From Pisaster brevispinus (taxonomy: Eukaryota; Echinodermata; Asteroidea; Forcipulatida; Asteriidae), in assembly GCA_023634235.1 (NCBI GenBank), contig JAMKCF010000073.1:400668-464667 (forward strand): a stretch of DNA of 64,000 nucleotides, in the 5' to 3' direction. The position numbers and the translations under genes were made by a program. Below are positions 12,816 through 63,879 of this stretch, piece after piece (positions within the stretch are counted from its first letter, which is position 1; the number at the start of each line of letters is the position of its first letter). Below the pieces are notes generated by a model. That model saw only the letters and a program-made list of their open reading frames with translations. It ran no database searches and was not told the origin of the DNA.

Positions 12816-13949
12816 ATGTATCCAGTTGTTCTGGTTGTGCTTGTAATGTTTCGTGGATGCCGAGCGTGTGTCCTCACTGGTCATCCGGAGGATACCGTAG
12901 CCGAGGTAGGAGAGACTGCCACGCTGAGGTGCAGCACTAACTTAAATATCTGTCCAGATGGGTTGTGTGTGATTCATTGGGAGCGTGAGACAAACAACAC
13001 ATTTGACGCAATTTCTGTCTGTACAACAGTGTATCATCAGTATTTGGACAGATATTCGGTGTCTTCTGGTCCTGACTGGTCTTTGACGATTACAGGAGTC
13101 CAGACAAGTGATGCGAGGCGATATCAATGCAGAATTTACTCATATGGAATAAACACCGGGGCTTATTCTTCCCCTGCGACCCTCATCATACCATCACTAA
13201 TCGACATCAGTGTCCAGCCGCCTCGTCGTCCAATAACAACGGGAGATAATGCAACATTTCACTGTAACGTTCAGTCACAGCGCAGAGCTCTACCAACCCT
13301 CAATTTGTATTGGTTTGTGAATGAAACCGAAGTAGGACAATTTCAAAACCAATCATTTTTTCACTTAGATAACGACGGATACACCCTAACATTTCTCAAG
13401 ATAAATGTTAACCACACTAATGTGTATTGTGAGGCTTTCAGTGGAACTAAATACTTGAAAAGAAGTGATAACTATCTGATACTCATTCATCCCCAGAAGA
13501 AACCGAAAGCATCCGCTACTCAAGTACCTGAGACTGAGGGGTCTCTCACCGTCAACCCTGCTGATTTTCCCCATGACATCTTAAAGACTTCTCTATCCAC
13601 AGGTATCGCTAAAGACATCACCAGACCATGGATGAAGTCAGTAGACGACACCCAACCCCCGTCCACACCTCCCGTCCTGGGGAGAGAGGAACCTACCAAG
13701 GACGTCATAATAGCTATCTCAGTGTGTGGAGTCCTCTCGATGCTCTTCAATATAGTCTTGATTTACCTCTGGGTTGGGAGAGGACAATGCAAAGCTAGAC
13801 GCAATACAAGCCGTGAATCTGACGCATATCGAAATGCTGAAGAAGACAGGGCGTATGAGGAGATGGAAACCCAACTACACGGCCAGGCTGCTTCTATAAT
13901 CATTAAGGAGACTACACCATCCAGCTACCAAGAACTGTCATTTAAGTAG
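12816..13949 (+). CDS. G1: short-tail two-Ig transmembrane receptor, intact
   Basis: A 377-residue type I membrane protein in one exon. Residues 1-17 are a signal peptide. Ig1 (about 18-126) is V-like, with canonical Cys39 and Cys105, Trp55 and a SDARRYQC end, plus extra Cys18, 46, 51 and 69. Ig2 (about 130-225) has Cys150, Trp166 and Cys205, a C2/I-type spacing. N-glycosylation sequons include N60, N145, N169, N178 and N199. A Pro/Thr-rich stalk precedes the membrane helix (about 297-320), which has no charged residue. The 57-residue tail has Tyr347 in YEEM (PI3K p85-type YxxM) and Tyr371 in SSYQEL, which fits the ITIM consensus. The start is the first ATG after conserved 5' sequence with an in-frame stop upstream. 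Probably a surface immune receptor on hemocyte-like cells; the ligand is unknown. No J-like FGxG motif, so it is not an antigen-receptor chain. Confidence 0.88.
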   Translation: MYPVVLVVLVMFRGCRACVLTGHPEDTVAEVGETATLRCSTNLNICPDGLCVIHWERETNNTFDAISVCTTVYHQYLDRYSVSSGPDWSLTITGVQTSDARRYQCRIYSYGINTGAYSSPATLIIPSLIDISVQPPRRPITTGDNATFHCNVQSQRRALPTLNLYWFVNETEVGQFQNQSFFHLDNDGYTLTFLKINVNHTNVYCEAFSGTKYLKRSDNYLILIHPQKKPKASATQVPETEGSLTVNPADFPHDILKTSLSTGIAKDITRPWMKSVDDTQPPSTPPVLGREEPTKDVIIAISVCGVLSMLFNIVLIYLWVGRGQCKARRNTSRESDAYRNAEEDRAYEEMETQLHGQAASIIIKETTPSSYQELSFK

Positions 13950-14685
13950 AGTATCTCTCCATGATGTATCATGCGGGAACTTCGATAAGGCGATGATAGA
14001 CGTAATTCAAGACGTTGATCTCACGCTGCTTGAATTGCTGTAGATAGCAGCATGTATGAGGCTATTGAAGCACAACTATAGGAGTAGACAGCACTTGTAT
14101 ATTAACACTAAAATAAAATGACACGTGAATGCATGATCGGTAACTTTTTTTAGCCAGAGATTACTTTCACTTAAACAACAATTTTGCATGCAGTTTTGGT
14201 TGATTTTATATTTCGAATACTTACTGCATGATGGGTAGACTGCTTTGTTTAAACCGCTGTCACCACATGCTGACATACTTTTAATATGTTTAATTGTCTT
14301 AACCATTTTATACTCACTAGTCTGTCCATATGCCGTAAGCCGGGCTATAATGCACATTCTATATATTATGGTGTCAATAAACAGGGGTCAGTGTTTTAGT
14401 TAAAAGTTGGCGGGACAAGAACTGCTAGTATCCTTTGTGTAAGAAATCGGTACGTCAATATGAAATTAACATAGTACACATTTTAAAATTCAAAAACTTG
14501 CCACAAGGAAACATTACTAAAATTGGTTTTAGCAAAAAAAAAAAAAAGAAGAAGTCCGAACGGACAACAACCCATTGAAAAAATTACTGTTGAAAACCTT
14601 AAGCCGCATCAGGGATATATATATTAATAACCATAATTTAAAATCAAAGAACATACGGCTGAAATCTTTTTCCATAGAGGTGACT
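13950..14685 (+). other. 3' flank of G1, shared with G2-G4
   Basis: Sequence after the stop (ATCTCTCCATGATGTATCAT) is repeated after G2, G3 and G4, so it was duplicated with the gene. AATAAA at 14112-14117 and 14376-14381 could be polyadenylation signals. Both are altered in the G2 and G4 flanks. The ATG-poor remainder holds no second gene. Confidence 0.6.
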
Positions 14686-14686
14686 A

Positions 14687-14944: not shown

Positions 14945-14946
14945 TA

Positions 14947-15860
14947 GTGCATTTCTTATTATACTCTAATGGTTGTTGGTTTAAATTGATCACTTTGACT
15001 TTCAACGTCTTAAACTTGTCGATGTACATTGCATGTAGACTTTATAAAGGTTTGCATAGTTCTGCACTAAATTAAAAGTCGAGTTTAGTTGAGGTGTATT
15101 TTCGGACAAAGTGGTAGCTGTAGAACAGTAAGAAGATATCAACATAAAAACTGTCAACGTTAGTGTTTCGGCTATTTTTGGAAACAAATGAGGAAAGTGG
15201 GACTTATGAAAACAATTGCAACTTGAAGGATTCAGTCCGGTTATAACGTTAATTCTGAACTGCCTTAGGGCAAGGGTGCTACAAAACTCATCACAAAATA
15301 CAGGAAGACACGATCAAAAATACTTTCTGCTCGTCAAAACCAAAGACAAATGTTTGTATAACCAAATAAAGGCATACATTTTGCTAGCTTTTATGCAAAA
15401 GAGGAAGTTTTGTTTAGAAAAACAATATTTTTTTGTTTTCATTGGGTCAGTATAAGATTATTAATAGCGTCCTAGACGAGAAACGAAGAAGATACGATTT
15501 TATTATTATTTTGTTAGGCAGGCTGTCGATTTTGGTTTAACTTGACATGAAAACATGTCTCAAGATCACCGTCTCTAACGATTGATGCCACATTATCAAC
15601 ACGTCACAAAAAAAACTTTAAAATCTCATTTTTAACGTAAACTTTTATTTTGAAAAAAAAATCCAGTAGCATTTAATCTATGGTGAATTTAACCATCCTA
15701 TGCTATCGTTACTAATTCTGGTTGACATTTGGGTTGACCCAAGGTCCATCTAAACAATTCATTTTCTTTCCAGATATCAATATACTCGGTAGGCTACTTG
15801 GGCTCGTAGTAATAGTATTTTTTAGAAAAACAAAACAAATATATAACAAAACAAAATCTG
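14947..15860. repeat. Flank block F, copy after G1
   Basis: Non-coding block with landmarks TAATGGTTGTTGGTTTAAATT, CATGTCGATGTACA-type sequence, CTGAACTGCCTTAGGGCAAG near 15256 and AGATCACCGTCTCTAACGAT near 15562. Repeated after G4 (36608-37480), after G5 (46257-46690) and, more diverged, after G3 (30725-30870 and 31560-31760). No coding content. Confidence 0.75.
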
Positions 15861-15864
15861 ATCG

Positions 15865-16320
15865 CCTCTCAGACCTTCTTCAACAACTCCACTGGCTTCC
15901 TTTTTATGAACGTATTATTTTCAAGTTGTTAACCATCACATATAACTGTTGGAATGAAACTGTTCCCCCTTACCTTACTGAACTTATCACTCCTTACCAG
16001 CCAAATCGCACACTCCGTTCAAGCTCAGATACAAGGATTCTCACAAAACCTTAAACCAGATACTGTTCATCTGCCAAAGGTTTGTACGCACCTACTCCAA
16101 ACCTTTGGAAGAACCAAACACGTCATGCCATTTACTAACTGAATTCAAAACATCGCTTAAACCTCAAGTTGTTCAGACTCATTTTGCTTACTAGGCCTGT
16201 TATTTCTTTCCCATTCCTTTGTATGGTCAATTGTTGAGTGTTGTACTAATTGTTGTAAACCGTTGTGGTACATTTTCCCTAAGAACGCTTAATAAATGCT
16301 TATACTATTATTATCTTATT
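15865..16320 (+). mobile_element. Non-LTR retrotransposon 3' fragment (CR1/L2-like)
   Basis: A translated stretch contains LLQQLHWLPFYERIIFK and PNRTLRSSSDTRILTKP, the usual C-terminal end of CR1/L2-type reverse-transcriptase polyproteins. The frame breaks after ILTKP; later parts, including a WNN-like segment and FKTSLK, need another frame. It ends in AATAAATGCTTATACTATTA, an (ATT)-type tail. A longer-reading sister copy is at 37500-37990. Confidence 0.75.
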
Positions 16321-16321
16321 A

Positions 16322-16492
16322 ATTTTTGTGTTTATAAACTACACCGATGTGTGTTAGCACTGTATACTCAGTACTTTCCCGAGTTCTGTGAACAAAAATC
16401 AAAGGCATTTTACTTGGGTGGGATTCGAACCCACGACCTTTGCAATTCTAGAGCAGTGTCTTACCAACTAGACCACCAACGGGTACCGCAAT
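16322..16492 (-). mobile_element. tRNA-derived SINE in the LINE tail
   Basis: On the minus strand GGTCTAGTTGGTAAGACACT resembles an A-box arm and GTGGGTTCGAATCCCACC is a perfect B-box/T-arm, followed by a non-tRNA body. The insertion splits the (ATT)n tail of the adjacent non-LTR fragment. The G4 sister at about 37950-38000 has the uninterrupted tail joining ACTCGATGACCCATGT. Confidence 0.75.
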
Positions 16493-21425: not shown

Positions 21426-22542
21426 ATGTTCCCAGTTGTTCTGGTTGTACTTGTATTGTTTCATGGATGCAGGGCGTGTGTCATCACGGGTCATCCGGAG
21501 GATACCGTAGCCGAGGTAGGAGAGACTGCCACGCTGAGGTGCAGCACTGACTTTACTATCTGTCAAGATAATGGTTGTGTGATTCATTGGGAGCGTGGGA
21601 CAAACGACATATTGGAATATGTATCTTTATGTGCTGGACAGATATTCAGTGTCTTCTGGTCCTGACTGGTCTTTGACGATTACAGGAGTCCTGCCAAGTG
21701 ATGTCATGCGATATCGATGTCGTATTTACGCATGGGAAACCGACATGTCACTAAGTTCTTCCCCCGCAACCCTCATTATACCCTCACTAATCGACATCAG
21801 TGTTCAGCCGCCTCTTCGTACAAGAACAACAGGAGATAATGCTAAATTTCACTGTAACGTTCAGTCACGAAGTGTAGCTCTACCGACCCTCAATGTGAAA
21901 TGGTTTGTAAATGGAACCGACGTCAGAAAATTTCAAGATCAATCATTTTATCATTTGAATAACGACAGACAAACCTTAACATTTCTCAATATAAGATTTA
22001 ACCACACTAACGTGTATTGTAAGGCATTTAGTGGAACTAAATATGTGAAAAGAAGTAAACAATACCTGATACTCATTCATCTTCAGAGGAAACCGATAAC
22101 AACCGCTACTCAAGTACGTGTGAATGACGAGTCTCCAACCGTTAACCCTGCTGAGTTTCTCCATGACACCGTTAAGACTCCTCAATCCACAGGTATCGCT
22201 AAAGACATCACCAGACCGTGGGTAAAGTCAGTAGACGATACCCAACCCCCGTCCACATCTCCCGTCCTGGGGAGAGAGGGACATACCCATGACGTCATAA
22301 TAGCCGTCTCAGTTAGTGGCGTTTTCTTCTCAATGCTCTTCACTATAGTCTTGATGTGCTTCACGGTCTGGAGAGGACAATGCAAAGCTAGACGCAATAC
22401 AAGCCGTGAATCAGACGCAGATCAGAAAGCTGGAGATGACAGAGCGTATGAGGAAATGGAAACCCGGCTACACGGCCAGGCTGCTTCTAAAGTCAGTAAG
22501 GAGACTACACCATCCAGCTACCAAGAACTGATACTTAAGTAG
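21426..22542 (+). pseudogene. G2: short-tail two-Ig receptor with 20-bp deletion
   Basis: A short-tail copy. Frame one from ATG 21426 gives the signal peptide and first part of Ig1 (ending LEYVSLCAG). Alignment with sisters shows about 20 bases missing at about 21635/21636, in the CDR2-like stretch just after the extra cysteine, so frame one stops at 21663-21665. A second frame then stays open to 22542. It carries DRYSVSSGPDW, the rest of Ig1, Ig2, the stalk, a membrane helix and a tail with YEEM and SSYQEL. Everything else is intact and the promoter box remains, so inactivation looks recent. Unless rescued by an undetected splice, the product would be a truncated secreted half-domain. The deletion could also be an allele. 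Confidence 0.85.
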
Positions 22543-28303: not shown

Positions 28304-29434
28304 ATGAATCTTGCAGTTGTATGCCTTCTTTTAATGTCTTATGGATGCAGAGCGTGTGTCATCTTGGATCATCCAGAAGACACCGTAGCTGAGGTAGGAG
28401 AGACTGCCATAATGACGTGTACCACTGACTTTACCATATGTCAAGATAGGTGTGTAATTCATTGGCAGCGTGAGACAAACGGCAAATTCGAAGGAATTTC
28501 TACATGTGCTTCTGCGTATTATTGGTATCCGAACAGATTTTCAGTGTCTTCTGGTCCTGACTGGTCTTTGACGATTACAGGAGTCCAGCCAAGTGATGTG
28601 AGGCGATATCGATGCGTCATTTACTCAGGTGGAACAAACCCCTTGGCTTATTCTTCCCCTGCGACCCTCATCATACCATCACTCATCGACAGCGACATCA
28701 TCGACATCAGTGTCCAGCCGCCTCGTCGTCCAATAACAACGGGAGATAATGCTACATTTCAGTGTATCGTTCAGTCACGGCGTGGAGCTCTACCGACACT
28801 CAATGTTAAGTGGTTTATGAATGGAACCAAAGTCAGAAGATTTTAAGATCAATCATTTTACCATTTGGATAACGACGGACACACCTTAACATTTCCCAAG
28901 ATAAGTGTTAACCAAACAAACGTGCATTGCGAGGCATTCAGTGGAACTAATTATGTTGAAGGAAGTGACAACTATCTGATACTCATTCATCCTCAGAAGA
29001 AACCGAAAACATTCGCTATTCAATTACCTGAGACTGAAGAGTCTCTCACCATCAACCCTGCTGAGTTTCACCGTGACAATGATGAGCTATCCGCTACTCA
29101 AGTGCAAGAGACCCAAGAAACAGAGACATCCCAACCCCCATGCAGTTGTACGTACCCCAACCGGGGAGAAGAGGAACCTACCAATGACGTGATAGTAGCT
29201 ATCTCAGTTTGTTTTGTCTTGTCGGTGCTCTTCAATATTGTATTGATTTACCTATTGGTTGGGAGAGAACAATGCAAAGCTAGACGCAATACAAGCCATG
29301 AATCTGACGCATATCAAAATGCTGGAGATGAAAGAACGTATGAAGAAATGGAGACCCAACTACACGGCCAGGCTGCCTCTACGGTCACTAAAGAGACTAC
29401 ACCATCCAGCTACCAAGAACTGATATTTAAGTAG
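28304..29434 (+). pseudogene. G3: short-tail two-Ig receptor with one nonsense codon
   Basis: Full-length short-tail copy (377 codons including the stop) in one frame, except TAA at codon 181 (28844-28846) where sisters have CAA, a single C-to-T change. Its signal peptide (MNLAVVCLLLMSYGCRA) resembles that of G5 more than G1. Ig1 keeps the six cysteines, but the loop after the second is one residue shorter (ICQDRC). The inter-domain linker holds a four-residue duplication (DSDIIDIS). The stalk is diverged and adds cysteines (PPCSC). The tail has TYEEM and SSYQELIF. If translated to the stop, the product would be a secreted protein with Ig1 and half of Ig2. Nonsense allele, young pseudogene or readthrough are all possible. 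Confidence 0.85.
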
Positions 29435-29437: not shown

Positions 29438-31250
29438 TCTCCATGGTGTATCAAGCGCGGAAACTTCGATAAGACAAAGTTAGACGTAATTCAAGACTTT
29501 AATCTGACACTGCTTTAATTGCTGTAAATAGCAACGTGTATGAGTGCATTGAAGCCAAACTATTTGACGGCATTGTATTTTTGAGACAATTAACATACTA
29601 AAACGACACGTGAATGCATAATCAGTAAATTACTTTAGCCGGATATAAACGTTTATTAAACATCATTTTTTTCATGCAGTTTTTCGTCATCTCAGAAATA
29701 GAATACCTACTGCATGATGGGTTGAAAGATCTGTCCAAACTCTGCAGTGTACCAGTGCATCGACTCAAATGCTCATGACTGAACTATTGTTTGTAAGACT
29801 TGTTATAAATAAATATTAGTCAGGTAAGTGTTCCCGCCTTCGAGTTGAGATAAATAAGCACGGACTATTTTGAGAAACGGTTCGCTTCGAAGTAATACGG
29901 TTTGAATACTATTTTTTATACATGTGAATTCAATCACTGTAGCTCGCAAGCCTGAGGAAACGTGTAAAAATGGGTGTTTGCTTTGTGAAACATAAACACA
30001 CAAAATGTAATTGTTTGTTTACTACATTGGACAATCAAATATTGATATATTAGTTACAGACCAGTAAATAGGCCTACTGTTTGTCAAGTTCACCATGTGA
30101 TTATGCAGGGAAGTTAAAACAACTTTGTCATTGAGCGAGGACTGAGATTATTGATGGCTGGAAAACAATGCTTCGCTTTTGTTTGTCCAACTATCAGAGA
30201 AGTGTATATTTCCTCAGTTAGGGGAAGTCTCCCAACTTTGTCAATATCCATATTTGGGGGCGGGCTGCCAGTCAATGGCGACACAACTTGTCCTGACATA
30301 TTTGTCTTTGTGAAGCCCAAATAGTTCTAAACAAAGAACAACTAGCTTAACACTTTTCAATTAGATGTGCATACACTGAAAACCCCCTTGTAAGAATATA
30401 CCCAGTTTCAGGCTCCCATTGGTACCGGCCCATTTTTTGGTCAGTATGTCAGATTTTATAAAACAAGTGTTACGTTCATTGGGAGATGAAAATAAAGACA
30501 ACATTTGAAGCCATTTCGTCGTGTATATGTGCCGATACAAGATATCGAGACAAATACTGGTTAATAAGTGATGGCGCATTTCAGTGAGACCTAATGGCTG
30601 TTGACTTGAAAACCACAAGTTTGCAAAATACATTTTTGAGGTACATCGGGGGTGACCAAAGGAGCCATTCTGACGATTGCGTCATTAGTAGTGTGGGTGG
30701 TGGACTGAGTTTTTCGAGTTTAGTGCATTTGTAATTACAATAACTCACCCGGTGGTTGGCTTTTATTCATCTTGTGATTTTCAGCGTGTTGAAAACATGT
30801 CGATGTAAAATGCACACAACTTGCGCAGGCTTGCATAGTGTTTGTTTAAAATTATAAATTCACGTTTGTCTGACATTAATAATGTTTAACGAATCAACGG
30901 TTTATTACTCTATGATTTGAAAAAAACTAATCTTTTTTTTCTATCTAAGAGAAAACAACAAACAATCAAATGTCTTCTGTTTAATCAAAGTAATGTTACT
31001 TATAGTTTTGTGAGTTGTACTATAATAACCTTTTTCAGATAAATTATTTTCTGAGAACAAAACCGAAAACAAAGTCGTCTCATAAAATTAGGACGAATTT
31101 TTGATTGCGTAAAATGGATTTAATGATTTTGAAAAAAATATATATATAATAAAACACCCCAATATACTAACAACGCATAGCCATTTTTACCCATTAGCAT
31201 AATGACAGTATTATTGGTCGTCTGCATTGATGTACTGAGACGGCCACACG
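29438..31250. other. 3' flank of G3, mostly without recognisable content
   Basis: The first 330 bp match the G1 flank (CTACTGCATGATGGGT near 29707). AATAAA near 29808 is a possible polyadenylation signal. At 30370-30430 there is a faint relic of the MITE left end and at 30725-30870 a piece of flank block F (CATGTCGATGTAAAATGC). The rest shows no gene or repeat I recognise. Confidence 0.5.
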
Positions 31251-35382: not shown

Positions 35383-35795
35383 GAGAGTCTCTCACCGTCA
35401 ACAATGCTGAGTTTCCCCTAGACATCGATAAGACTACTTTACCCACAGGTATCGCTAAAGACGTCACCAGACCATGGGTGAAGTCAGTAGACGATAGCCA
35501 ACCCTCGTCTACGCCTCCCGTCCTGGGGAGAGAGGAACATACCCATGACGTCATAATAGCCATCTCCGTTAGTGGTGTTTTCTTCTCGATGATTTTCAAT
35601 ATAGTCTTGATGTACATTCCGATCTGGAGAAGACAATCCAAAGCTAGACGCAATACAAGCCGTGAATCTGACGCAGACCGAAATGCTGGAGATGACAGAA
35701 CGTACGAGGAAATGGAAACCCAACTACACGGCCAGGCTGCTTCTACAGTCAGTAAGGAGACGACACCATCCAGCTACCAAGAACTGATTCTTTAG
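35383..35795 (+). pseudogene. G4: 3' fragment of a short-tail receptor
   Basis: Similarity to G1-G3 begins abruptly at about 35383 (GAGTCTCTCACCGTCAAC), an in-frame TGA lies just before it, and no signal peptide or Ig domain precedes it. The retained part stays open: the stalk (SVDDSQPSSTPPVLG), a membrane helix (about 35548-35622) and a tail with TYEEM and a terminal SSYQELIL, stopping at the usual place. The 3' flank is also conserved, so a duplication broke inside the gene. It could still donate tail sequence by gene conversion, but on its own it lacks a signal peptide and promoter box. Confidence 0.85.
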
Positions 35796-37500
35796 TAGTG
35801 TATCTCTCCATGATGTATCATGCGGGAACTTCGACAGGGCGATGATAGACGTAATTCAAGACGTTAATTTCACGCTGTCTGAATTGCTGTAGATAGCAAC
35901 ATGTATGAGGCTATTGAACCCGAACTATAGGAGTAGTTAACACGTGTATATTAACACTAGACTAAAACGACACGTGAATGCATGATCGGTAAACTACTTT
36001 AGCCAGATATTAACTTTTTTCTTAAACAGCAATTTTGTATGCAGTTGTTTTTGATTTTAGATTTCGAAAATACAAACTGAATGATGGGTGGACAGGTTTA
36101 ATAAAACCCTGTAGTGAAGAACGCTGTAACTACATGCTGACATACTTTTAATATTTCAATTGTCTTAACCAGTCTATAATCAATAGTCTGTCCATAGGCC
36201 ATATATAGTCTGTCTATATATTCTAAGCTGGACTATAATGCACGCTCTATATATTATGGTGTCAATCAACAGGGGTCAATGAGTTAGTTAGAAGGGGCAG
36301 GACAAAACTCAACTAGCATCCTTTGTGTAAAAAATCGGTTTGTTAATATGGAAATAAACTATAATATTCAATAAATAACTAGGATGAGTTAAACAAAATT
36401 GGTTCTAGCAATAGAGAATTCCGAAAGGACAATGACCCATTGAACAAAAAATGCTGAAAATCTTAAGCCGTATCTATGACAGAAAAAATAACAACCCTAA
36501 TTTAAACCAAAGAACATTCATCCACATTGGTGACTGCACTCTGAAAATCTATAAAGTTTACACCAATTTCCGGGTCTTTTCTGACGTGGAGTTTTCAGAT
36601 TGAAGTGCACTTCTTATCACATTCCAATGGTTGCTGGTTTTAATTGATCACTTTGATTGTCAACGTGTTTAAAACATGTCGATGTACAATGCAAATAGTC
36701 TTTACAAAGGTTAGCATAGTTTCTGCAATTAATCAAAAGTCGAGTTTACTTGAAGAGGTGTATTTTATGACAAAACTGGTAATTATAGGACAATAAGAGG
36801 ATATTAATATAGAACTGTCGATGTTAGTGTTTTGACTCATTCAGGAAAAATATGAGAACTTTTGAAGAAAATTGTAACTTGAAGGATTCAGTCCAGTTAT
36901 AACAGTCAGTCTGAACTGCCTTAGGGCAAGGGTGTTTACAAAACCCATAACAAAATACAGGAAGAAACGAAGAAAACATATTTGCTGCTTGTCACAACCA
37001 AATACAATTGTTTTATAACCAAATTAATAAGGGCACACATTTTGCTTACTTTTATGCAAAAGAGAAAGACAAACAGGATTTATTTTCTTTGGGTCAATGT
37101 CAGATTATAAATAGCGCCCTAGACGAGAAACGAAGATAATACGATTTGTGTTTTTTTTAGGCTGTTGATATTGATTCTCATCTTGACTTGCGAAACACGT
37201 CTCAAGATAACCGTCTCTAACGATTGATGATAAATTATTAACACGTCACAAGACAGAACTTTTAAATCTCTTTTTTTAATGTACACTTTTCATTTGAGAT
37301 TAATTCCATAGCATTTAATCCTTGGTGATTTTAAGCAACCTATGCTATCATTACTAATTCTGGTTGACATTCGGGTTAACCGTAGGTACAACTAAACAAT
37401 TCATTTTGTATGATATCATCATACTCGGTAGGCCTTACTTGGGCGCGTAGTAATAGTACTTTATAGCAAAACAATTAATACATTAAAAAAATATATAAAA
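35796..37500. repeat. 3' flank and flank block F after G4
   Basis: Parallels 13950-15860 after G1 almost throughout: CACGTGAATGCATGATCGGT, a reduced MITE copy (36537-36606), CTGAACTGCCTTAGGGCAAG (36911) and CATACTCGGTAGGCCTTACT. No gene. Confidence 0.75.
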
Positions 37501-41488: not shown

Positions 41489-43075
41489 ATGTATCTTGTA
41501 GTGGTTTGCCTTCTTGTATTGGCCTCAGTAAGCAGAGCGTGTGTCTTTACGGGTCCACCTGAGGATACCGTAGCCGAGGTAGGAGAGACTGCCACGCTGA
41601 GGTGTAGCACTGACTTTACCATCTGTCGAGAAGAGTGGTGTGTGATTCATTGGCAGCGTGAGACAAGCAACAAATTTGAAGCAATTTCTGTATGTGCTTC
41701 TTTGTATCAACGGTATCCAGACAGATATTCAGTGTCTTCTGGTCCTGCCTGGTCTTTGACGATTACAGGAGTCCAGCCAAGTGATGCGAGGCGATATCGA
41801 TGCAGCATTTACTCAGAAGGAACAAACCCCTGGGCGTATTCTCCCACTGCGACCCTCATCATACCATCACTAATCGACATCAGTGTCCAGCCGCCTCGTC
41901 GTCCAATAACAACCGGAGATAATGCTACATTTCAGTGTAACGTTCAGTCACAGTGTGGAGCTCTACCGACCCTCAATGTAAAATGGTTTGTGAATGGAAC
42001 CGACGTCAGAAGGTTTCATTATCAATCATTTTATCATCTGGATAACGACGGGCACACCTTTACATTTCTCAAGATAAGTGTTAACCACACTAACGGGTAT
42101 TGTAAGGCACTCAGTGGAACTAAATCTGTGAAAAGAAGTAATAACTATCTGATACTCATTCATCATCGGTGGACTGAAGAGTCTCATCTCAACCCTGGCA
42201 GCTCAAATTCCCTAAACACGGTGTCTTCTCACTCAACAACACCAACAGAGAGAAACATACCAAGTGTGATCGTAGATGGAGCACATCTGTCCCCATCCAT
42301 CCAACCTTCTCCCAAGAATCCTGATTCTAATTTCAAAAACTCATCCTCGGATGATAATAACTCACTCATCTTAGTAGGAGGAGTTATCACTGCAGTCTTC
42401 TTGATGCTATTAATTTCATTTCTTATTTACTGTCTCGTCTTCAAAAGACAATGCAAATCGACACACAACACACGTTCTGCATATACACCTAAAGGTGATG
42501 GACGAGAAAGTGATGCAGACGGGATATCAGAAACCCAACTGCACGGAGTCACTCCGAGTTGTGATCAAGCAAATGAGCACACAAGCTCGGCAGGGGACAG
42601 GTCAGTTGAGTCCCCGAGTGAAACAGTTGCTGTAGTAGTGACATCGGACTGTCACCAGCAGGCACAGACAAAACGTGATCAAGACGATGTGGACAAACCT
42701 CTGTCCACTCTTATTGATGGTTCAGTCAAGGAAGGAGAGACATGTTATGACAAACACATTTATCCTGAGTCGATGTATGCTGCGGTTAACAAAAGTCGCG
42801 CCAAAAGTAAGACATTTGGGAAAGATGGATCAAAGCTGAATCGCGGAACAAACAACGCTCAGACCTTGAGTAGTTATTTCAAATATGACAGTCCGTCTGA
42901 GCGTCAGAAATCAACCGCCGCTGTGAAAGATTTGCCGGTACCAGGACGCGTTGTTGACCGTCAATCGTCCGGTCAGAAACCCCCTCGCGTCATTCCGTAC
43001 CATCTCTCCAGACGGCGAGCAAGTACCACGACCAATCACCAGGCCGGGCCAGAGCAGACGGCAGACCATATATAA
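41489..43075 (+). CDS. G5: long-tail two-Ig receptor truncated by a SINE
   Basis: 528 residues in one exon: signal peptide (cleavage near SRA/CVF), six-cysteine V-type Ig1 with loop ICREEWC, Ig2, a Ser/Thr/Pro-rich stalk, a membrane helix at about 292-317 and a cytoplasmic tail of about 210 residues. The ectodomain is close to the short-tail genes, but stalk, membrane helix and tail are of the second type (LVGGVITAVFLM). Tyr430 in SMYAAV fits the ITIM consensus. A tRNA-derived SINE at 43070 adds two codons and a stop, removing the two distal motifs (LIYADL, TVYADI) found in G7; their DNA survives beyond the SINE with later stops. It is probably still expressible with altered signalling. Start chosen by alignment with sisters. 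Confidence 0.85.
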   Translation: MYLVVVCLLVLASVSRACVFTGPPEDTVAEVGETATLRCSTDFTICREEWCVIHWQRETSNKFEAISVCASLYQRYPDRYSVSSGPAWSLTITGVQPSDARRYRCSIYSEGTNPWAYSPTATLIIPSLIDISVQPPRRPITTGDNATFQCNVQSQCGALPTLNVKWFVNGTDVRRFHYQSFYHLDNDGHTFTFLKISVNHTNGYCKALSGTKSVKRSNNYLILIHHRWTEESHLNPGSSNSLNTVSSHSTTPTERNIPSVIVDGAHLSPSIQPSPKNPDSNFKNSSSDDNNSLILVGGVITAVFLMLLISFLIYCLVFKRQCKSTHNTRSAYTPKGDGRESDADGISETQLHGVTPSCDQANEHTSSAGDRSVESPSETVAVVVTSDCHQQAQTKRDQDDVDKPLSTLIDGSVKEGETCYDKHIYPESMYAAVNKSRAKSKTFGKDGSKLNRGTNNAQTLSSYFKYDSPSERQKSTAAVKDLPVPGRVVDRQSSGQKPPRVIPYHLSRRRASTTTNHQAGPEQTADHI

Positions 43076-43439
43076 TAATAATATAATAATAATCGATTCT
43101 TATATAGCGCTTTTTATCACAGCCCGAGGGGCGTATCAAAGCGCTTCTGACATTATTACCCCTGGTCACTGGGCCATTATTTCATTCCATAAACCATCTC
43201 AGCTCCCTGGGGAGTATACAGCCGGTGCTGCGAGTTTACCGCGCTCCAAGCTAATCATTCACATGAACCATCTCTGCCCTCACAGGTACCCATTTTACCC
43301 CTGGGTGGAGAGAAGCAATTATGGTTAAGTGTCTTGCTCAAGGACACAAGTGTCACGACCGGGATTCGAACCCACATACCGATAACTTAACCACCAGAAC
43401 TTGAGTCCGATGCTCTTATCCACTCGGCCACGACACCCC
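43070..43439 (-). mobile_element. tRNA-Leu-derived SINE, 370 bp, inside G5
   Basis: Read on the minus strand it opens with a class II tRNA-like head (43351-43437): GGCCGAGTGGATAAGAGCAT, GGACTCAAGTTCTGG (anticodon-like CAA, as in tRNA-Leu), a long variable arm, and GTGGGTTCGAATCCCGG. The body has TCCTTGAGCAAGACACTTAA and the 3' end AGCGCTATATAAGAATCGAT runs into an ATT-type tail. ACCAT is duplicated at 43065-43069 and 43440-43444. Joining the flanks matches the sister sequence at 63665. Confidence 0.9.
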
Positions 43440-43444
43440 ACCAT

Positions 43445-43640
43445 GGTGAGGACGGTCTCGTCAAGGATGACCCAATACAGAGGAATGTGGAAGGTCTGAT
43501 CTACGCTGACTTGGATCTATCGTGAGGATCGGCAAGAATCATCCACCTGGAGGAGGAGACGGTTTATGCTGACATTTGAAACGAGAAGGCTGTGGGTAAG
43601 ATGAGGGAGGGAACTACAGGCCAAGCCTATAAGAAATATA
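43445..43640 (+). pseudogene. Stranded G5 C-terminal remnant
   Basis: Matches the end of G7, including codons for LIYADLDLS and TVYADI, but separated from its gene by the SINE. It has since gained TGA at 43523-43525 (CGA in sisters) and TGA at 43577-43579 (GGA in sisters). AATAAA at 43652-43657 just downstream could end the transcript. Confidence 0.88.
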
Positions 43641-43649
43641 ATAACCAGT

Positions 43650-43989: not shown

Positions 43990-44805
43990 AGAAAAAACCT
44001 AACAATGTACAAAAGGCCTATCATGAAATAGTGTGAAAGCAGTTCAAGCCTTACCTTCCTTCAGCAAACGCCGAAATGAAGAATAAGAGTTTGAACGAGT
44101 AGTTAAAGGAATACCATTTAAAAAAGAGGGAGATCTATAACTGAAGCTGTTTTTTTAAAGTTCACATTTAGGTTTGGGAACAATATAATTACCCTGTGTA
44201 ATTGCCATGGTAGTTGGACGATCACAAGACCTAATCCGGTCAAGTCTCTGGCATAGATAGTCCGGAGCAACACCAATGGAAGCCTTAAAAGCCTGGCAGG
44301 CAAGTTGGAAGTGGATGCGCTGAGAAACTGTCATAGTGTTAACATTACTAAAAGTTAAGTTTGTTGAGGAGAGAGGGGAAAGCTTTAGAACAATGCGAAG
44401 GGCACGATTTTGGAGTTTTTTAATTTTGTTGACAAGAGTTGGTCTGGCACCCCACACCATGCAGCAGTAGTCTTTACGGGGAAGAACCAAAGCATTGTAT
44501 AACAAAAGGCTGTTTGCTGGTTAATAAATGTTCTCGTTCTGGCGAGCAAGGCAACTGAGGAATTTAGTTTATTGCAAAATTTGTTCACATGTTCATTGAA
44601 GTTTAGCTTGTTGTCTAGGAGTATACCTAGATGTTTATGAGAATTTACTTGAATGTTGTATTATTTGGCCTGAAATCAAAACTGTAAGGGGATTGCTCTT
44701 TTTGAGCTTTTGAGTAGTACCAACGAGCATGACTTCTGTTTTTTTAGGATTCAGGGAACTCATTGAATCCAAAACTGTTACCTTGACTTTCTTTAAAATT
44801 TCAGT
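43990..44805 (-). mobile_element. Non-LTR retrotransposon reverse-transcriptase 3' fragment
   Basis: Minus-strand translation in a few frames gives SLNPKKTEVMLVGTTQKLKK, then LNFNEHVNKFCNKLNSSVAL, then LVLPRKDYCCMVWG and KIKKLQNRALRI. That order is typical of the thumb and post-thumb end of jockey/CR1-group reverse transcriptases. Frameshifts and the missing upstream catalytic part make it a dead 5'-truncated copy. It is a different element from those at 15865 and 37500. Confidence 0.8.
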
Positions 44806-46690: not shown

Positions 46691-48160
46691 TTCAAGTGTT
46701 AATAAAATGACATTTTATACCATTCAAATTAGTAATGTTTCCCCCACTTACAGGAGGGTTCTATGTATTGAAAGATGAGTGCAGCACAAAACTGAATTTG
46801 ACTTCGGGCCCCTCTTTAGTTGAGACAGTTGGAACAACTTTGTAGGTCTTGAGGGCAGATCCAATATTTATAGGATCCAGAAACACACAATTCTTTTGTG
46901 CTTGTCCCACCATCAGAAGAATCTATTTCCTCCTTCAAAGTCGTATATCCTGTTTATACAAAAGCAACTACAATTATCAGTTCCCCTTGTTTAATAAACG
47001 ATCCAGAGATCTTTCCTCCAGTTCTTAGTTTTGTTGTTAGTTCGGCCAAAAATATACAACTTTCTCAAATTAAAGATGGTGTCAAAGATGGGTAAATTAC
47101 TCAAAACATTTACCACCATAAAAAGTCTTACTTTGGTAAGAAGCTCTGCAGCTGTTGATTGTATTATCTACTTTGAAAAAGGATTCACTTCGAACTTATA
47201 TGCATTTTTCGCCCGAGTTGTTTGAGAATCTGAGAACGTATCGAGCATGAACAGTTTCACAATTTTTTTTCAAAGAATGAAATTTCAAATTCCCATGGTG
47301 TCCGTTTGCGAATGGTGCGGCCAGTTGCGAATGGGACCCACTGTCACCTTGGTAAACGCGGATGGATTTGACGTTCTTGTGAAAGTGCAGTGAAAGGTTT
47401 TTGAAGTGTTTTGTTCACAAGTAGCCTGTGTTCAGCTGAAACTTTTAGATATGACTTGTATTGTATTTTTGTTGATAATTTTGCCAATACATCAGCCTTA
47501 CGTTGACTTAAACCAGTCTATACACTACCCTGAAGAGTAAACAATAACAACTATCATTTCCCCTTGTTTAATAAAGGGTACATACATTTCTTCCGCCATT
47601 TCTCAGTTTTGTTAGTTTAGCTAAAGTCGACAACTTCCGTATTGACAATTTAATATTCCGTTTCCTCAAATTAGGTCATTGATTCTGGTAAGGATAATAA
47701 TATAGTTGATTTACTTTGGTCTGCCCTCTAAGTGAAATAAATTATGTTGTTGTTTTTTATCCTGATTTTTATCCAAATCATACATGAAAATTGAAAAACA
47801 TAAATTAAAATTATTGGTTTCTAGAGCAGATGAACCGATCGTGAGATGAATGCCCAGTAACAATACTTGAACACGAATCATCAACACATATTGTAAATTA
47901 TCTGTTTTGTTGCACTGTTCTAGTCATCAAAACTATAAATCACAATCAATTTAATTTATTTAAATTTGTCCAAGTACCCGATAAAGAACAATGTTTAGTA
48001 TTGTGCTGACAGAAACTGTTAGACCTTGCCCACTTGTGAAGATTTGAGGAGATTTTTTTTAAATAAAGTTGAGATTGGTAAATGAGAAATTGTTGTGTTT
48101 GTGTGTTGTTGTTTAGACAAAAGAGTTCTTTATTTGTGGGTTTTAAATTTAATTCATAAA
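46690..48160. repeat. Block B, copy 8 (right half)
   Basis: Landmarks AAAGATGAGTGCAGCACAAA near 46770, GAATGGTGCGGCCAGTTGCG near 47311, CAGTAACAATACTTGAACAC near 47854. Very close to copy 1 (2100-4200), including the downstream tetranucleotide array, so copies 1 and 8 are probably recent duplicates. Confidence 0.8.
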
Positions 48161-48167
48161 AAACAAC

Positions 48168-49797
<1,630 letters not shown>

Positions 49798-49799
49798 CA

Positions 49800-51330
49800 A
49801 ACTAAACAACGAAAAATAGTATAGAGAAATCATAACAGATTTGTTTTACTGGTGTAAACAATTGGTCTAATTCATCTATATTCTCCCTCGCGTCCCTGTA
49901 CAATCTGTCTAAGGCTAAAACCAACAATCATATTATTTGCAACTTAGCAGAGATAGTCTCTAAAGCAACAAACATTCCCTGTTAATAAAAATACCACACT
50001 TATTAAGTTGTTTGGATACAAACTGAGACGATGTGTCTCTACGGGGAAAGGTTCACTTCCCTCCCAGGGAGTCAGCACGTGTAGTGCAGCTGCAGTAAGA
50101 TTGAATTTTTGTTTAATTAATACACTATGTGTGAAGTTGACTTAGATTAGGCTTGCAACTGTTTGACACCATTAAATGTCCTTGTGGAGTTTTACAATTT
50201 TCAGGTCGAATAATGTCCATTTTTATTTTTTTTATTTTTATTTGTTTTAGCGGTACATGCTTATTACATGTACTTTAATTGATTACAGGATACATCACAC
50301 AGCTACATAGACACATTAAAAAAAACCACATATACAAATTTGGGAGTATTATTAAAATGCAATGGGATAGGACTATCTGGAAGGCTGGGTGTAAAGTAAC
50401 AGCTGCAGTACACATACTTTTCTCGAGGGGCATACTGAGTATGATACATTATTCTCTTTGTTAAGTAAATCCAAACACCATTTTCCCGCTGAAAGACCGC
50501 ACTGCTACCTTTCAAGTCTGTGTTCTGTACGCATTTTAATGTTTTAAAAAAATTAAATTAGTATTCATAGAACCCCAGTAATGATTTGGCTTTACCCAAA
50601 CTGGGGAAAAGGTAAAAAACATAACAGTTGGGCATTAATTAACCTTGATCCTGTTATCTTTAAATACAATTTCAAGTAACGTTTACTCCTGGATTTTCTG
50701 GATTTTTTGGTAAAGAGCCACCACTTTCTTTCATCACTGTTGCCCCGCCCACAAACAAATAAATACCTGTCGATTTATTTCAGCAGTTTCAGCGATGTAT
50801 AAATACCTGTCGATTTATTTCAGCAGTTTCAGCGATGTGGAGGCATTCATTTTGAGTCAAACAATCAAACGTAATCTCCAATTTAATATTAATTAATTCC
50901 TTAAACAAAATTTACCAACCGCCACCCCAGGGGAGAGTCCAGATGAGTTCAACTCTAAAAATGAATATTGCTATAATCTTCCTATTACGGTCTGCTGAGC
51001 TTACAAAATGTTCACGTCTTGCTCTTCTCGTTTCTGGTTCTGAATTGCCAATTAGGTAGATTTTTTATTCAAAAGATGGGGGTTAACAGGCAGTGGAGTA
51101 TTACGTAATAAGCTAATTTAAATAACAACAAGCACAGGGTGTGTGTGTACCTTCTGACCGTAACACTTCCTTTATCCTGTTAGCAGCAGCTGCAGTAGGA
51201 TCAAACAAGCCGTGCACACAGTGTATATAAAAGTTATGAGATTCTGTGTAAGAAAGTGTTCACAAAAGACTTAACAATATTGACAATTATCTGTTCGACT
51301 ATAAGGTTTCGCAGCTAATTACAATCAATG
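49800..51330. repeat. Block B, copy 9 (left half)
   Basis: Follows the array with AGTATAGAGAAATC as in copy 2, then GAGACGATGTGTCTCTACGG near 50025 and ATTGCCCCGCCC-like sequence near 50740. It includes a local 50-bp tandem duplication of ACCTGTCGATTTATTTCAGC (50766 and 50803) and ends near GTGTATATAAAAG (51220). Confidence 0.75.
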
Positions 51331-52948: not shown

Positions 52949-54733
52949 ATGTATCCAGTTGTTCTGGTTGTGCTTGTATTGTCTTATGGATGTAGAGCGT
53001 GTGTAATCAACGGACATCCAGAAGACACTGCTGCCGAGGTAGGAGAGACCGCCACGTTGACGTGTAGCACTGACGTCACTACGTGTGATTATGCCAAATG
53101 TTACCTTCATTGGCAGAGTGAGACAACAGACACATTTAAAACAATTACTACATGTGCTTCTGTGTATCATCAGTATCCAGACAGATATTCAGTATCTTCT
53201 GGTCCTGACTGGTCTTTAACGATTACAGATGTCCAGTCAAGTGATGCGAGGCGATATCGATGCAGCATTTACTCATTTTGAACAAACACCTGGGCTTATT
53301 CTTCCCCTGCGACCCTCATCATACCTTCACTAATCGACGTCAGTGTCCAACTGCCTCATCGTCCAATAATAACTGGAGAAAATGCTACATTCCATTGTAA
53401 CGTTCAGCCAGAACGTAGAGCTCTACCAACCCTCAATGTGAATTGGTTTGTGAATGGAACCGACGTTAAAACATTTCAAGATCAATCATTTTATCATTTG
53501 GATAACGACGGACACACCTTGACATTTCTTAAGATAAGTGTTAACTACACTAACGTGTATTGTAAGGCATTCAGTGGAACTAAATACGTGAAAAAAAGTG
53601 ACAACTATCTGATACTTATTCATCCTCAGAAGAAATTGGTAACATCCGCTTCTCCAATACCTCAGACTGAAGAGTCTCATCCCAACCGTGACAGCACGGT
53701 GTCTTCTTACTCAACAACACCAAGAGAGGGATACATACCGAGTTTGGCCGTTGAGGGAGCACACCAGTCCACATCCATCTATTCTTCTACCAAGAACCCA
53801 GACCTTAAGATCCAATACTCATCCTCGGATGATAATAAAACATTCATCTTAGTAGGAGGAGTTATCACTGCTGTCTTTTTAATGCTAGTCATCTCATTCC
53901 TTATTTACTGTCTCGTCTTCAAAAAACAATCCAAAGCGACAGACAACACACGTTCTGCATCTACACCTAAAAGTGGTGAAGGAGAAAGTGAAGCAGACGA
54001 GATTTCAGAAACCCAACTGCACGGAGTCACTCCGAGGTGTAATCAAGAATTTGACCGCACTAGCTCTGCAGGGGAGAGGTCAGTTGAGTTCCTGAGAGAA
54101 ACAATCGGTGTAGTAGTGACATTGGACTTACACCAACAGGCAGAGACGAAACATGATCAAGACCCCGTGGAAAAACCTCTGTCCACTAAAACTGATGGAT
54201 CAGTCAAAGATGGGAAGAAACGTAATGACAAACAGAATCATTTTGAGTCCATGTACGCTGTGGTGGATGAAAGTCGCGCCAAATGCAAGATATTTGGCGC
54301 CATTTCCACTGAAGAGGCGTCTAGGAAAGTCTCCGGAGTTGGGAACGATGGATCGAGGCTGAATTGCGGAACAGACATCGCTCAGACCCTGAGTAGTTGT
54401 TCCAATAATGACAGTCCGTCTGAGCGTAATAAATCAACCGTCGCTGTGAAGGATTTGCCGGTACCAGGGCGCGTTGTTGACCGTCAACCGTCCGGTCAGA
54501 AACCCCCTAGCGTCACCCCGTACCATCTCTCCAAACGCCGAGCGAACACCACGACCCAAGCCAAGGCCGCACTAGAGCAGACGGCAGACCGTGGTAAGGA
54601 CGGTCTCGTCAAGGATGACCCAAGACAGTGGAATGTGGAAGGTCTGATCTACGCTGACTTGGATCTATCGCGAGGATCGGCAATAATCATCCACCCGGAG
54701 GAGGAGACGGTTTATCCTGACATTGGAAACTAG
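52949..54733 (+). pseudogene. G6: long-tail ITIM receptor with one nonsense codon
   Basis: Long-tail copy of 594 sense positions plus stop, open except TGA at codon 111 (53279-53281), where sisters have GGA, in the CDR3-like loop right after Ig1's last cysteine. Ig1 (six cysteines, loop TCDYAKC), Ig2, stalk, membrane helix (LVGGVITAVFLMLVISF) and tail follow. Tyr436 in SMYAVV and Tyr568 in LIYADL fit ITIM; Tyr589 in TVYPDI fits the ITSM pattern TxYxx(V/I). The reading frame ends DIGN-stop, 24 residues earlier than G7. An in-frame upstream start at 52889 was not used because it lies in 5' leader sequence that sisters do not translate. A single otherwise silent stop suggests a recent null allele, a secreted single-domain product, or readthrough. 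Confidence 0.86.
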
Positions 54734-61589: not shown

Positions 61590-61775
61590 GTGTGTTGCAA
61601 ATAGACTAGCCCGAAGGGCATAGACTGACGCGTATGTTGAATTTGATGCTGATAAAGAAACTGGCTCACAGAGCATAGACTGATACGTGTGTTGAAAACC
61701 AGGCTGTCAAAAAGAATGGCTTACAGAGCGTAGACTGATACGTGTTTTGAAAATGAGGCTGTCAAAAAGAATGGC
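61590..61775. repeat. 56-bp minisatellite upstream of G7
   Basis: Three to four units of the family also at 10925 and 51966 (TAGACTGATACGTGTGTTGA). It ends eight bases before the promoter box. Confidence 0.85.
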
Positions 61776-61783
61776 TTTAAATA

Positions 61784-61791
61784 GAGGAAGT
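61784..61791 (+). promoter_or_regulatory. PU.1/ETS-type box upstream of G7
   Basis: GAGGAAGT in ATAGAGGAAGTCATGCCCGT, the same context as the first G1 box (12578). The second position has GAGGAAAC (about 61811), a one-to-two-base departure from the core. 223 bp before the ATG. Confidence 0.55.
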
Positions 61792-62013
61792 CATGCCCGT
61801 CTTGGTTCAAGAGGAAACTAACATAACCAGACACACATGTTATTTGCAGTGTCCCGTTAATGAGACAACATCATTATTTACAGCTCCAACACTTTGGACA
61901 TTTTGGGTAGCGGACCTCTTTGTCAAGGAAGAGCAGAGAAACTTGTATGCTAGCTTCTATCAGGACTTTACATGTATATTTCACTATACACTGTTTTCAT
62001 TCAGCGTGGAAAG

Positions 62014-63879
62014 ATGTATCCAGTTGTTTTAGTTGTGCTTGTAATGTGTCATAGATGCAGAGCATGTGTCATCACGGGTCACCCGGAGGATACTGTAGCC
62101 GAGGTAGGAGAGACTGCCACGCTGAGGTGTAACACTGACTTAACTATCTGTCCAGATTGGTTGTGTTTGATTCATTGGGAGCGTGAGACAAACAACAGAT
62201 TTGAAGCAATTTCTACATGTGCTGGTGTGTATCCTCATTTTCCAGACAGATACTCAGTGTCTTCTGGTCCTGACTGGTCTTTGACGATTACAGGAGTTCA
62301 GCCAAGTGATGCGAGGCGATATCGATGCAAACTTTACATATATGGAACACAATCTTGGGCTCATTCTTCCCCTGCGACCCTCATCATACCATCACTCATC
62401 GACATCAGCGTCCAGCCGCCTCTTGGTCCAATAACAACGGGAGATAATGCTACATTTCATTGCAACGTTCAGTCACGACGTGGAGCTCCACCAACCCTCA
62501 TCGTGCACTGGTTTGTGGATGAAACCGACGGCAGAAGATATCAAGATCAATCATTTTATTATTTGGATAACGACGAACACACCTTAACATTTCTCAAGAT
62601 AAGTGTAAACTACACTAACGTGTATTGTAAGGCATTCAGTGGAACTAAATCTGTGAAAAGAAGTGATAACTATCTGATACTCATTCATCCACAGAAGAAA
62701 CCGATAATATTCGCTACTCAAGTACCTGAGACTGAAGAGCCCCATCCCAACCCTGGCAGCACAAAATCCCTGAACGCGGTGTCTTCTCACTCAACAACAC
62801 CAACAAAGAGAAACATACCAGGTATGACCGTAGAGGGAGCACATCCGTCCCCATCCATCCAACCTTCTCCCAACAATCCTGATCTTAAACTCCAAGACTC
62901 ATCCTCGGTTGATAACCTCACATTCATCTTAGTAGGAGGAGTTATCACTGCTGTTTTCTTGATGCTAATCATCTTATTTCTGATTTACTGTCTCGTCTTC
63001 AAAAGACAATCCAAGGCGACTCACAACACACGTTCTGCATCTACACCTCAAGATGATGGAGGAGAAAGTGATGCAGACGGGATATCAGAAACTCAACTGA
63101 GTGGAGACATTCTGGGATCTGATCAAGAAAATGACCACACTGGCTTTTCAGAGGTGAGGTCAGTTGAGTTCCCGAGAGAAACATTTGCTATAGTAGCGGC
63201 ATCGGACTTACACCAACAGACAGAGACAAAACATGAACCAGACGATGTGGACAAACCTCTGTCCACTGAAACGGATAGATCAGTCAAGGATGGGGAGAAA
63301 CGTATTGATAAACATTACTATCCTGTGTCTATGTATGCTGTGGTAGATAACAGTCGCACCAAACGTAAGACAATTGGCGCCATTTCCACTGAGGAAGCGT
63401 CTTGTAACGTCTCCGAAGGTGGGAAGGATGGATCGAAGCTGAATCGTGGAACAGACAACGCTCAGACCTTGAGCAGTTGTTCCAAACATCAAATTCCGCC
63501 AGAACGTCAGAAATCAACCGTAGCTGTGAAGGATTTGGCTGTACCAGGACGCAATGTTGACCGTCAACCGTCCGGTCAGAAACCCCCTCGCGTCATTCCA
63601 TACCATCTCTCCAAACGTCGAGCGAACACCACGACCCAAGCGCAGGCCACACTAGAGCAGACGGCAGACCTTGGTGAGGACGGTCTCGTCAATGATGACC
63701 CAAGACAGAGGAATGTGGAGGGTCTGATCTACGCTGACTTGGATCTATCGCGAGGATCGGCAAGAATCATCCACCCTGAGGAGGAGACGGTTTATGCTGA
63801 CATTGGAAACAAGAAGACTGTGGGAAAGATGAGGGATGGAAGTACAGGCCACGCCCTTAAGACAAATGCTAACCAATGA
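62014..63879 (+). CDS. G7: intact long-tail ITIM/ITSM two-Ig receptor
   Basis: 621 residues, one exon. Signal peptide about 1-17; six-cysteine V-type Ig1 with loop ICPDWLC; Ig2 with sequons; Ser/Thr/Pro stalk; membrane helix about 304-329; cytoplasmic tail of about 292 residues, mostly polar and probably disordered. Tail motifs are Tyr441 in SMYAVV (ITIM), Tyr573 in LIYADL (ITIM, close to SIRP-type YADL motifs) and Tyr594 in TVYADI (ITSM-like). In vertebrates such motifs recruit SHP-1/SHP-2 or SAP-family SH2 proteins, so an inhibitory or switch receptor is inferred. The start at 62014 is chosen over the in-frame ATG at 61972, which lies in leader sequence that sisters do not translate. The C terminus runs 24 residues past the G6 stop (AAG here, TAG there). 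Ligand unknown. Confidence 0.9.
   Translation: MYPVVLVVLVMCHRCRACVITGHPEDTVAEVGETATLRCNTDLTICPDWLCLIHWERETNNRFEAISTCAGVYPHFPDRYSVSSGPDWSLTITGVQPSDARRYRCKLYIYGTQSWAHSSPATLIIPSLIDISVQPPLGPITTGDNATFHCNVQSRRGAPPTLIVHWFVDETDGRRYQDQSFYYLDNDEHTLTFLKISVNYTNVYCKAFSGTKSVKRSDNYLILIHPQKKPIIFATQVPETEEPHPNPGSTKSLNAVSSHSTTPTKRNIPGMTVEGAHPSPSIQPSPNNPDLKLQDSSSVDNLTFILVGGVITAVFLMLIILFLIYCLVFKRQSKATHNTRSASTPQDDGGESDADGISETQLSGDILGSDQENDHTGFSEVRSVEFPRETFAIVAASDLHQQTETKHEPDDVDKPLSTETDRSVKDGEKRIDKHYYPVSMYAVVDNSRTKRKTIGAISTEEASCNVSEGGKDGSKLNRGTDNAQTLSSCSKHQIPPERQKSTVAVKDLAVPGRNVDRQPSGQKPPRVIPYHLSKRRANTTTQAQATLEQTADLGEDGLVNDDPRQRNVEGLIYADLDLSRGSARIIHPEEETVYADIGNKKTVGKMRDGSTGHALKTNANQ

Follow-up and report, generated by a model that had tools for sequence, protein, structure and literature searches.

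The best-known paired receptors, which join a shared head to opposing tails, come from vertebrates. Among clustered immunoglobulin (Ig) receptors, the NITR, SIRP and Siglec families carry tails with immunoreceptor tyrosine-based inhibitory or switch motifs (ITIM or ITSM). Their heads define them: the V domain of NITRs ends in a J-like FGxG, that of SIRPs is followed by two C1-set domains, and that of Siglecs combines the Siglec cysteine arrangement (non-canonical pairing) with a sialic-acid arginine. Here we describe a tandem cluster of Ig receptors in a 64,000-nucleotide stretch of the sea star Pisaster brevispinus (contig JAMKCF010000073.1, positions 400,668 to 464,667; the window). The cluster is genuine and unusual, most of its copies are broken, and no named relative of the family was found. 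It probably represents a birth-and-death cluster of single-pass invertebrate immunoreceptors, likely borne on blood cells and working as a paired-receptor system.

By analogy, the cluster would work most like vertebrate paired Ig receptors such as CD300A/CD300C, which set a V-type head on opposing types of tail; the head is homogenized between tail types by gene conversion, and pseudogenes of one partner recur (PMC12447643). The same paper describes the ITIM consensus and the recruitment of SHP. CD300 receptors have one Ig domain and, in the activating member, a charged membrane residue (PMC12447643), whereas the sea star cluster combines a V plus C2 plan with single-exon coding regions and an uncharged membrane span in all seven copies (G1–G7). 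FcoR of Botryllus is an invertebrate multigene set of Ig receptors, gathered in a locus, with a V-type domain and with ITIM and other tyrosine motifs. Its plan of a V, a sushi and two C2 domains, with alternative splicing (PMC12065747), differs from that of G1, G5 and G7, which gave no sushi match against Pfam and just one C2/I domain beside the single V, and whose coding regions have no introns. This domain plan rules out identity with FcoR. Hydractinia Alr, likened by description only, comprises cnidarian allorecognition genes with motifs of the ITIM or immunoreceptor tyrosine-based activation motif (ITAM) type (PMC12065747). Amphioxus BbLcLRR, whose ectodomain is of leucine-rich repeats and not Ig, dampens signalling in a human T-cell line through tyrosines in ITIM or ITIM-like motifs; these associate with SHIP1 and, to a lesser extent, with SHP1/2 (PMC8211107). 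The pathway can therefore operate outside vertebrates. Among invertebrate Ig receptors, oyster CgIgIT2 likewise bears an activation motif built on tyrosine, but it has five Ig domains and an ITAM, and the extract of PMC11999971 describes no paired cluster. Among the matches listed from the open-access literature, none concerned a cluster of single-exon genes for paired Ig receptors, whether in echinoderms or in other invertebrates; for a search confined to open-access papers this is weak evidence of absence.

Seven loci, all on the same strand within 12816–63879, were located by tblastn of the window with G1, G5 and G7 as queries. Four end in a short tail (G1–G4) and three in a long tail (G5–G7). 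They start 8.6, 6.9, 7.1, 6.1, 11.5 and 9.1 kb apart (range 6.1–11.5 kb), the start of the G4 remnant serving for that copy. G1 (12816–13949, + strand) is an intact short-tail receptor of 377 amino acids (aa) with a signal peptide, supported by its open reading frame (ORF), Pfam matches and membrane span. Its V domain lies at 12864–13196, C2/I at 13197–13493, the membrane span at 13704–13766, YEEM at 13854–13865 and SSYQEL at 13920–13937. G7 (62014–63879, + strand) is an intact long-tail receptor of 621 aa, with V at 62062–62394, C2/I at 62395–62691, the membrane span at 62923–62985, the two ITIMs at 63328–63345 and 63724–63741, and the ITSM at 63787–63804. In both, signal peptide, V, C2/I, stalk, membrane span and tail follow one another without a break, and the remaining copies keep the same frame except at lesions; the coding region is therefore a single exon. 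A sequence-only reading of this DNA had proposed a tandem cluster with a shared V plus C2 ectodomain, two tail classes and an ITIM/ITSM long tail, and that overall layout is borne out. Its seven same-strand copies with one ectodomain plan correspond to seven loci but to six ectodomains, G4 having neither Ig domain. It had overlooked the broken state of most copies, the lack of any Ig domain in one, the loss of the distal motifs from G5 and the absence of introns from the coding regions.

All four short tails hold YEEM and SSYQEL, in agreement with the YxxM plus SxYxxL of the sequence-only reading, and YEEM stands 24 residues from YQEL. Each of the two is expected about 0.03–0.05 times per short tail; the single ITIM-like motif is borderline per copy (3.5–5.0% of shuffles). 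The long tails of G6 and G7 carry SMYAVV, LIYADL and TVYPDI/TVYADI; in G7 these are SMYAVV at Y441, LIYADL at Y573 and TVYADI at Y594, the last two 21 residues apart. Scored with the patterns [ILVS]xYxx[ILV] and TxYxx[VI], the G7 tail has an ITIM plus ITSM count of 3 where shuffling predicts 0.27, and 0.20% of 5000 shuffles came up to that count. For the G6 tail the count is likewise 3, with 0.20 predicted (0.06% of shuffles). Since the copies are related, these shuffle tests are not independent trials. The series ITIM, ITIM, ITSM-like earlier ascribed to the long tails thus exceeds chance in G6 and G7, but the G5 frame retains the first motif only (SMYAAV, not significant, 23% of shuffles).

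Over 81–83 alignable codons of membrane span and tail, nucleotide identity is 83–89% within a class and 44–49% across classes. Synonymous divergence (dS) in this region is 0.21–0.46 within a class and 0.93–3.84 or undefined across, and its tree splits the two classes at 100/100. Ectodomain dS is 0.21–0.42 across classes versus 0.22–0.37 within. Monophyly of the short-tail copies is rejected by the approximately unbiased (AU) test in the 5' flank (p-AU 1.5e-5), in leader plus V (5.9e-4) and in the whole ectodomain (1.1e-3). Short-tail G3 and long-tail G5 group at 99/98 in the ectodomain tree, and short-tail G1 and long-tail G7 at 96/96 in the 5' flank tree. Cross-class identity is 0.80–0.87 around ATQVPETE in the stalk and drops to 0.33–0.43 past it. 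Because the tails form two deeply separate classes while the 5' flank and leader plus V reject sorting by class, heads and tails have recombined. The simplest reading is that recombination or conversion has moved promoter, leader and V between two 3' modules. With 5' flank and V exchanged in this way, similar heads come to stand on either tail, and closely similar ectodomains on two tail classes, the mark of paired receptors, are present. The cytoplasmic parts of the two tails also align with each other (QxKAxxNT...ETQLxG), 46 of 2000 shuffles doing equally well; with the membrane span added none of 1000 shuffles was as good, but the composition of the span favours this. A distant common origin of short and long tails is likely, though not proven.

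Pfam V-set matches reach 33–38 bits (cut-off 26) and I-set matches 34–42 bits (cut-off 23.7) in the three copies scanned, and V-set and I-set/Ig_3 matches exceed the curated cut-offs in G1, G5 and G7, which accords with the V-type plus C2/I-type plan. The hallmarks of the Ig superfamily (V-set plus I/C2-set, B–F cysteines, C-strand tryptophan) are present, and C39, W55, C105, C150, W166 and C205 are invariant in the six-row alignment. C18, C46, C51 and C69 are additional cysteines that are conserved. A first structure prediction of the G7 ectodomain had a mean predicted local distance difference test (pLDDT) of 47; in a second, the V domain was well folded in one of five models (means 60 versus 37–42). 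The predicted V superposes on antibody light chains in VIA-align. The best 50 Foldseek rows and the best 50 VIA-align rows are all antibody chains, matches that exclude no other V-set family; Foldseek TM values are 0.41–0.47 over the whole model, half of which is unfolded. Structure prediction of both Ig domains, which had been suggested as a check, thus gave an antibody-like V in one of five models but no confident model for C2. The V fold is best described as predicted to resemble an antibody light chain.

The V domain was split into framework and complementarity-determining region (CDR)-like segments by the landmarks C39, W55, the DRYSV segment, C105 and ATLIIP. The ratio of the proportions of nonsynonymous and synonymous differences (pN/pS), obtained by Nei–Gojobori counts on related and partly lesioned copies and not by a branch-site test, is 1.10 in the 50 CDR-like codons (bootstrap 0.82–1.54) and 0.30 in the 63 framework codons (0.17–0.50), across 15 pairs of six copies. 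No codon permutation of 5000 in the six copies was equally extreme in pN difference or ratio. With G1, G5 and G7 alone, whose ectodomains are unbroken, the values are 1.43 and 0.24; in four other copy subsets they are 0.87–1.79 and 0.13–0.46. In each of these five subsets the pN difference was reached by 0 of 5000 permutations. Elsewhere pN/pS is 0.47 in C2, and 0.40 in the short membrane span and tail. Fast amino-acid change that appears restricted to the CDR-like loops strengthens the paired-receptor analogy.

The upstream regions are shared as well. The window contains 10 occurrences of GAGGAAGT, always on the + strand, where 1.46 would be expected over the two strands together. Seven (at 12578, 12614, 21222, 28118, 41283, 52704 and 61784) precede the start codons of the six head-bearing copies by 186–245 nt, two of them before G1; the G7 site is the more upstream of two related ones, and the site aligned with the other copies reads GAGGAAAC. 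Because the copies share descent, this recurrence is conservation and not independent enrichment. GAGGAAGT resembles a PU.1/Ets blood-cell site, which is a hint only. Directly before the ATG of all six stands TTTTYATTCAGCR (12796, 21406, 28284, 41469, 52929 and 61994), with 6 matches in the window against 0.01 expected. It resembles a splice acceptor (3' splice site), the conserved TTTTCATTCAG before the ATG being the putative site, and the genes may therefore begin with a 5' exon that is non-coding. The G1 flank (12575–12815, +), with two GAGGAAGT and a 17-nt conserved block, aligns across tail classes with its counterpart before G7 (61781–62013, +) by self-BLAST and alignment, pattern scans having located the G1 elements.

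A search of 5.8 billion predicted proteins found four relatives, P0001–P0004, 50–75% identical to G1 and encoded on contigs of at most 2861 bases. G7 as query yielded one (6063 candidates) and G1 all four (2007 candidates); alignment A1 returned the same four from the 7996 candidates with the most words in common. Animal proteins seem to be scarce in the collection, so the absence of further relatives says little. P0001 is of the long-tail type, open as far as its sequence extends, with one Glu in its membrane span. Its stalk (about residues 229–310) contains a tandem repeat of the short-tail-type stalk followed by a stalk of the long-tail type, perhaps the trace of an intermediate between the two 3' modules.

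Several other identities were rejected. A prokaryotic or viral origin was rejected, as no relatives were found in viral contigs (queries G7 and P0001) or genome contigs (G7 and alignment A3). Recent assembly duplicates or alleles are ruled out by ectodomains that are 80–87% identical with dS 0.21–0.42. A vertebrate host is disfavoured by the CpG observed/expected ratio of 0.68, the values of typical jawed vertebrates being lower; this ratio and the single-exon genes lend an invertebrate host indirect support. The sequence-only reading had drawn a parallel to NITR, SIRP and Siglec. These remain analogues by layout, but two fail on defining features: the segment where NITRs have FGxG reads TLIIPS or SLIIPS in nine of nine aligned ectodomains, and, unlike SIRPs, the copies have a single second Ig domain, with I-set above cut-off in G1 and G5 and C1-set matches sub-threshold (12.7 and 18.4 of 21 bits). 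The canonical B–F cysteines of the V domain speak, though not decisively, against Siglec.

The proposed mechanism begins with features that can be read in the DNA. A V domain with fast-changing CDR-like loops stands on a C2/I domain, a stalk and a membrane span. One 3' module supplies the long tail of ITIM, ITIM and ITSM and the other the short tail of YxxM and ITIM-like SxYxxL, with 5' flank and V exchanged between them. The loops would bind a ligand, non-self or polymorphic self, upon which Src-family kinases would phosphorylate the tail. On the long tail, the ITIM/ITSM pair 21 residues apart would recruit phosphatases with Src homology 2 (SH2) domains and dampen the cell; on the short tail, YEEM would recruit phosphoinositide 3-kinase (PI3-kinase) for a costimulatory or competing signal. 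Through head exchange, both tail classes would continue to cover the same range of ligands as their loops diversify.

A number of points weigh against this paired-receptor reading. It is drawn from sequence. Only two of the seven copies, G1 and G7, have a frame that is open over its full length; G5 is one further open copy, with a shortened tail, and the cluster may be decaying. No charged residue occurs in the most hydrophobic 21-residue window of G1–G7, which sets the short form apart from classical activating receptors that couple to an adaptor, and the second motif of this form, SSYQEL, is itself ITIM-like. These two features leave opposite signalling signs of the tails, like an activating role of the short tail, an inference. 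The long membrane span and tail is weakly constrained (pN/pS 0.73), and the tail motifs could be endocytic YxxPhi signals. C2 has no confident structural model; taken alone, it is compatible with class monophyly (p-AU 0.285). In the protein tree a long-tail ectodomain clade including P0001 is not rejected (p-AU 0.19), and the grouping of G1 with G7 is weak in the ectodomain tree (68/79). Loop boundaries were chosen once the alignment and a sliding identity table had been viewed, which makes the contrast of CDR-like segments and framework partly post hoc. The six-copy CDR-like bootstrap interval spans 1, and the short-tail trio, at 0.87, lies below 1, so a CDR-like pN/pS above 1 is not universal.

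The alternatives are not mutually exclusive. The one that survives best, a possible though clearly less probable account, makes both tail classes inhibitory or tuning, with SSYQEL acting as an ITIM, YEEM as a modulator and the system varying the strength of inhibition in place of pairing opposite signs. SSYQEL does match the ITIM consensus in all of G1–G4, the 24 residues between YEEM and YQEL are not ITAM spacing, and the membrane span offers no charged residue to an activating adaptor. YEEM is nevertheless conserved in all four short tails, whose span and tail are constrained (pN/pS 0.40), and it is through YxxM that CD28, ICOS, DAP10 and similar costimulatory receptors engage PI3-kinase.

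Somewhat more tentative is a germline-diversified, antigen-receptor-like repertoire of single-exon V–C2 receptors, in which a promoter-plus-V cassette has been recombined repeatedly onto two ancient tails, giving new loop specificities both inhibitory and costimulatory output. If so, the intron-free head would be one continuous conversion tract, and the window one part of a larger polymorphic repertoire.

It is unlikely that the cluster is largely a decayed set of pseudogenes with working members elsewhere in the genome. Four further members do lie on other contigs, and G2 to G6 all carry lesions. G2 (21426–22542, +; short tail) is thrown out of frame by a deletion in the CDR2-like part of V, evident from two ORFs in two frames, a split tblastn match and the alignment. 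G3 (28304–29434, +; short tail) has an in-frame TAA at 28844–28846 in C2 (ORFs, tblastn). G4 (35388–35795, +) consists of stalk, membrane span and short tail, with no Ig domain (ORFs, tblastn). A relic V-domain fragment at 30462–30584 (+), found by six-frame search with a family hidden Markov model (E 3.7e-8) and by tblastn (E 3e-4 to 6e-4), represents either an eighth copy or the head missing from G4. G5 (41489–43075, +) has an open frame of 528 aa with a full ectodomain and a long-type tail that ends after SMYAAV. There a tRNA-derived insert resembling a short interspersed element (SINE; 43070–43439, −) is flanked by the target-site repeat ACCAT at 43065–43069 and 43440–43444. This insertion of 375 nt, with its 5-nt repeat and tRNA-like head, takes the second ITIM and the ITSM out of frame. 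ARAGORN (bacterial code) called a tRNA-Leu inside it at 43350–43436 on the minus strand, a site without an Rfam match at gathering score. The decayed distal G5 tail (43445–43648, +), 79% identical by tblastn to G7 residues 554–621, still shows LIYADL and TVYADI, with two stops. G6 (52949–54733, +; long tail) has an in-frame TGA at 53279–53281 in V, keeps two ITIMs and the ITSM-like motif, and stops 22 residues short of the G7 end. On the other side, G1 and G7 are intact, framework pN/pS is 0.13–0.46 in six copy sets, and lesions that amount to one stop or indel in each gene might also have arisen recently, be polymorphic or reflect assembly errors.

A role in adhesion, fertilization or allorecognition, in place of blood-cell immunity, is just as doubtful. 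The PU.1/Ets-like GAGGAAGT upstream of all six heads hints against it. In its favour, clustered Ig receptors with tyrosine motifs have a part in invertebrate allorecognition too, Botryllus FcoR carrying ITIM or hemITAM motifs (PMC12065747). Least probable is that the receptors are endocytic or phagocytic and that YxxPhi sorting signals let tail class set their trafficking. YADL, YAVV and YQEL do match that consensus as well, but the residues at −2 agree with ITIM/ITSM at all three such sites in both G7 and G6, and the ITIM2–ITSM spacing of 21 is within the range of vertebrate tandem SHP sites.

Other elements of the window were also recorded. A copy of the upstream duplication unit at 2028–4348 (matching pieces 2028–3095 and 3778–4348 by self-BLAST; no strand assigned) has no receptor match behind it by tblastn. 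A tRNA-derived, SINE-like match at 16414–16479 on the minus strand is the sole Rfam match at gathering score and is absent from the ARAGORN output. Long simple tandem arrays lie between genes (about 48090–49850, 4300–5250 and 6690–6960); the sea urchin Sp185/333 immune gene cluster has repeats and segmental duplications too, according to the extract of PMC5103432. ORF remnants at 44155–44660 (−), 15716–16054 (+) and 37432–37842 (+) look mobile-element-like by eye, with no Pfam match above cut-off, and none of 10 other ORFs scanned (of 62 listed with at least 90 aa) reached a curated Pfam cut-off.

That diversification is concentrated in the loops suggests a particular class of ligand. An invertebrate family of single-exon genes built on the same logic as the vertebrate pairs would suggest that keeping the heads of different signalling classes matched has evolved convergently, and the cluster would offer a compact system for watching head–tail recombination.

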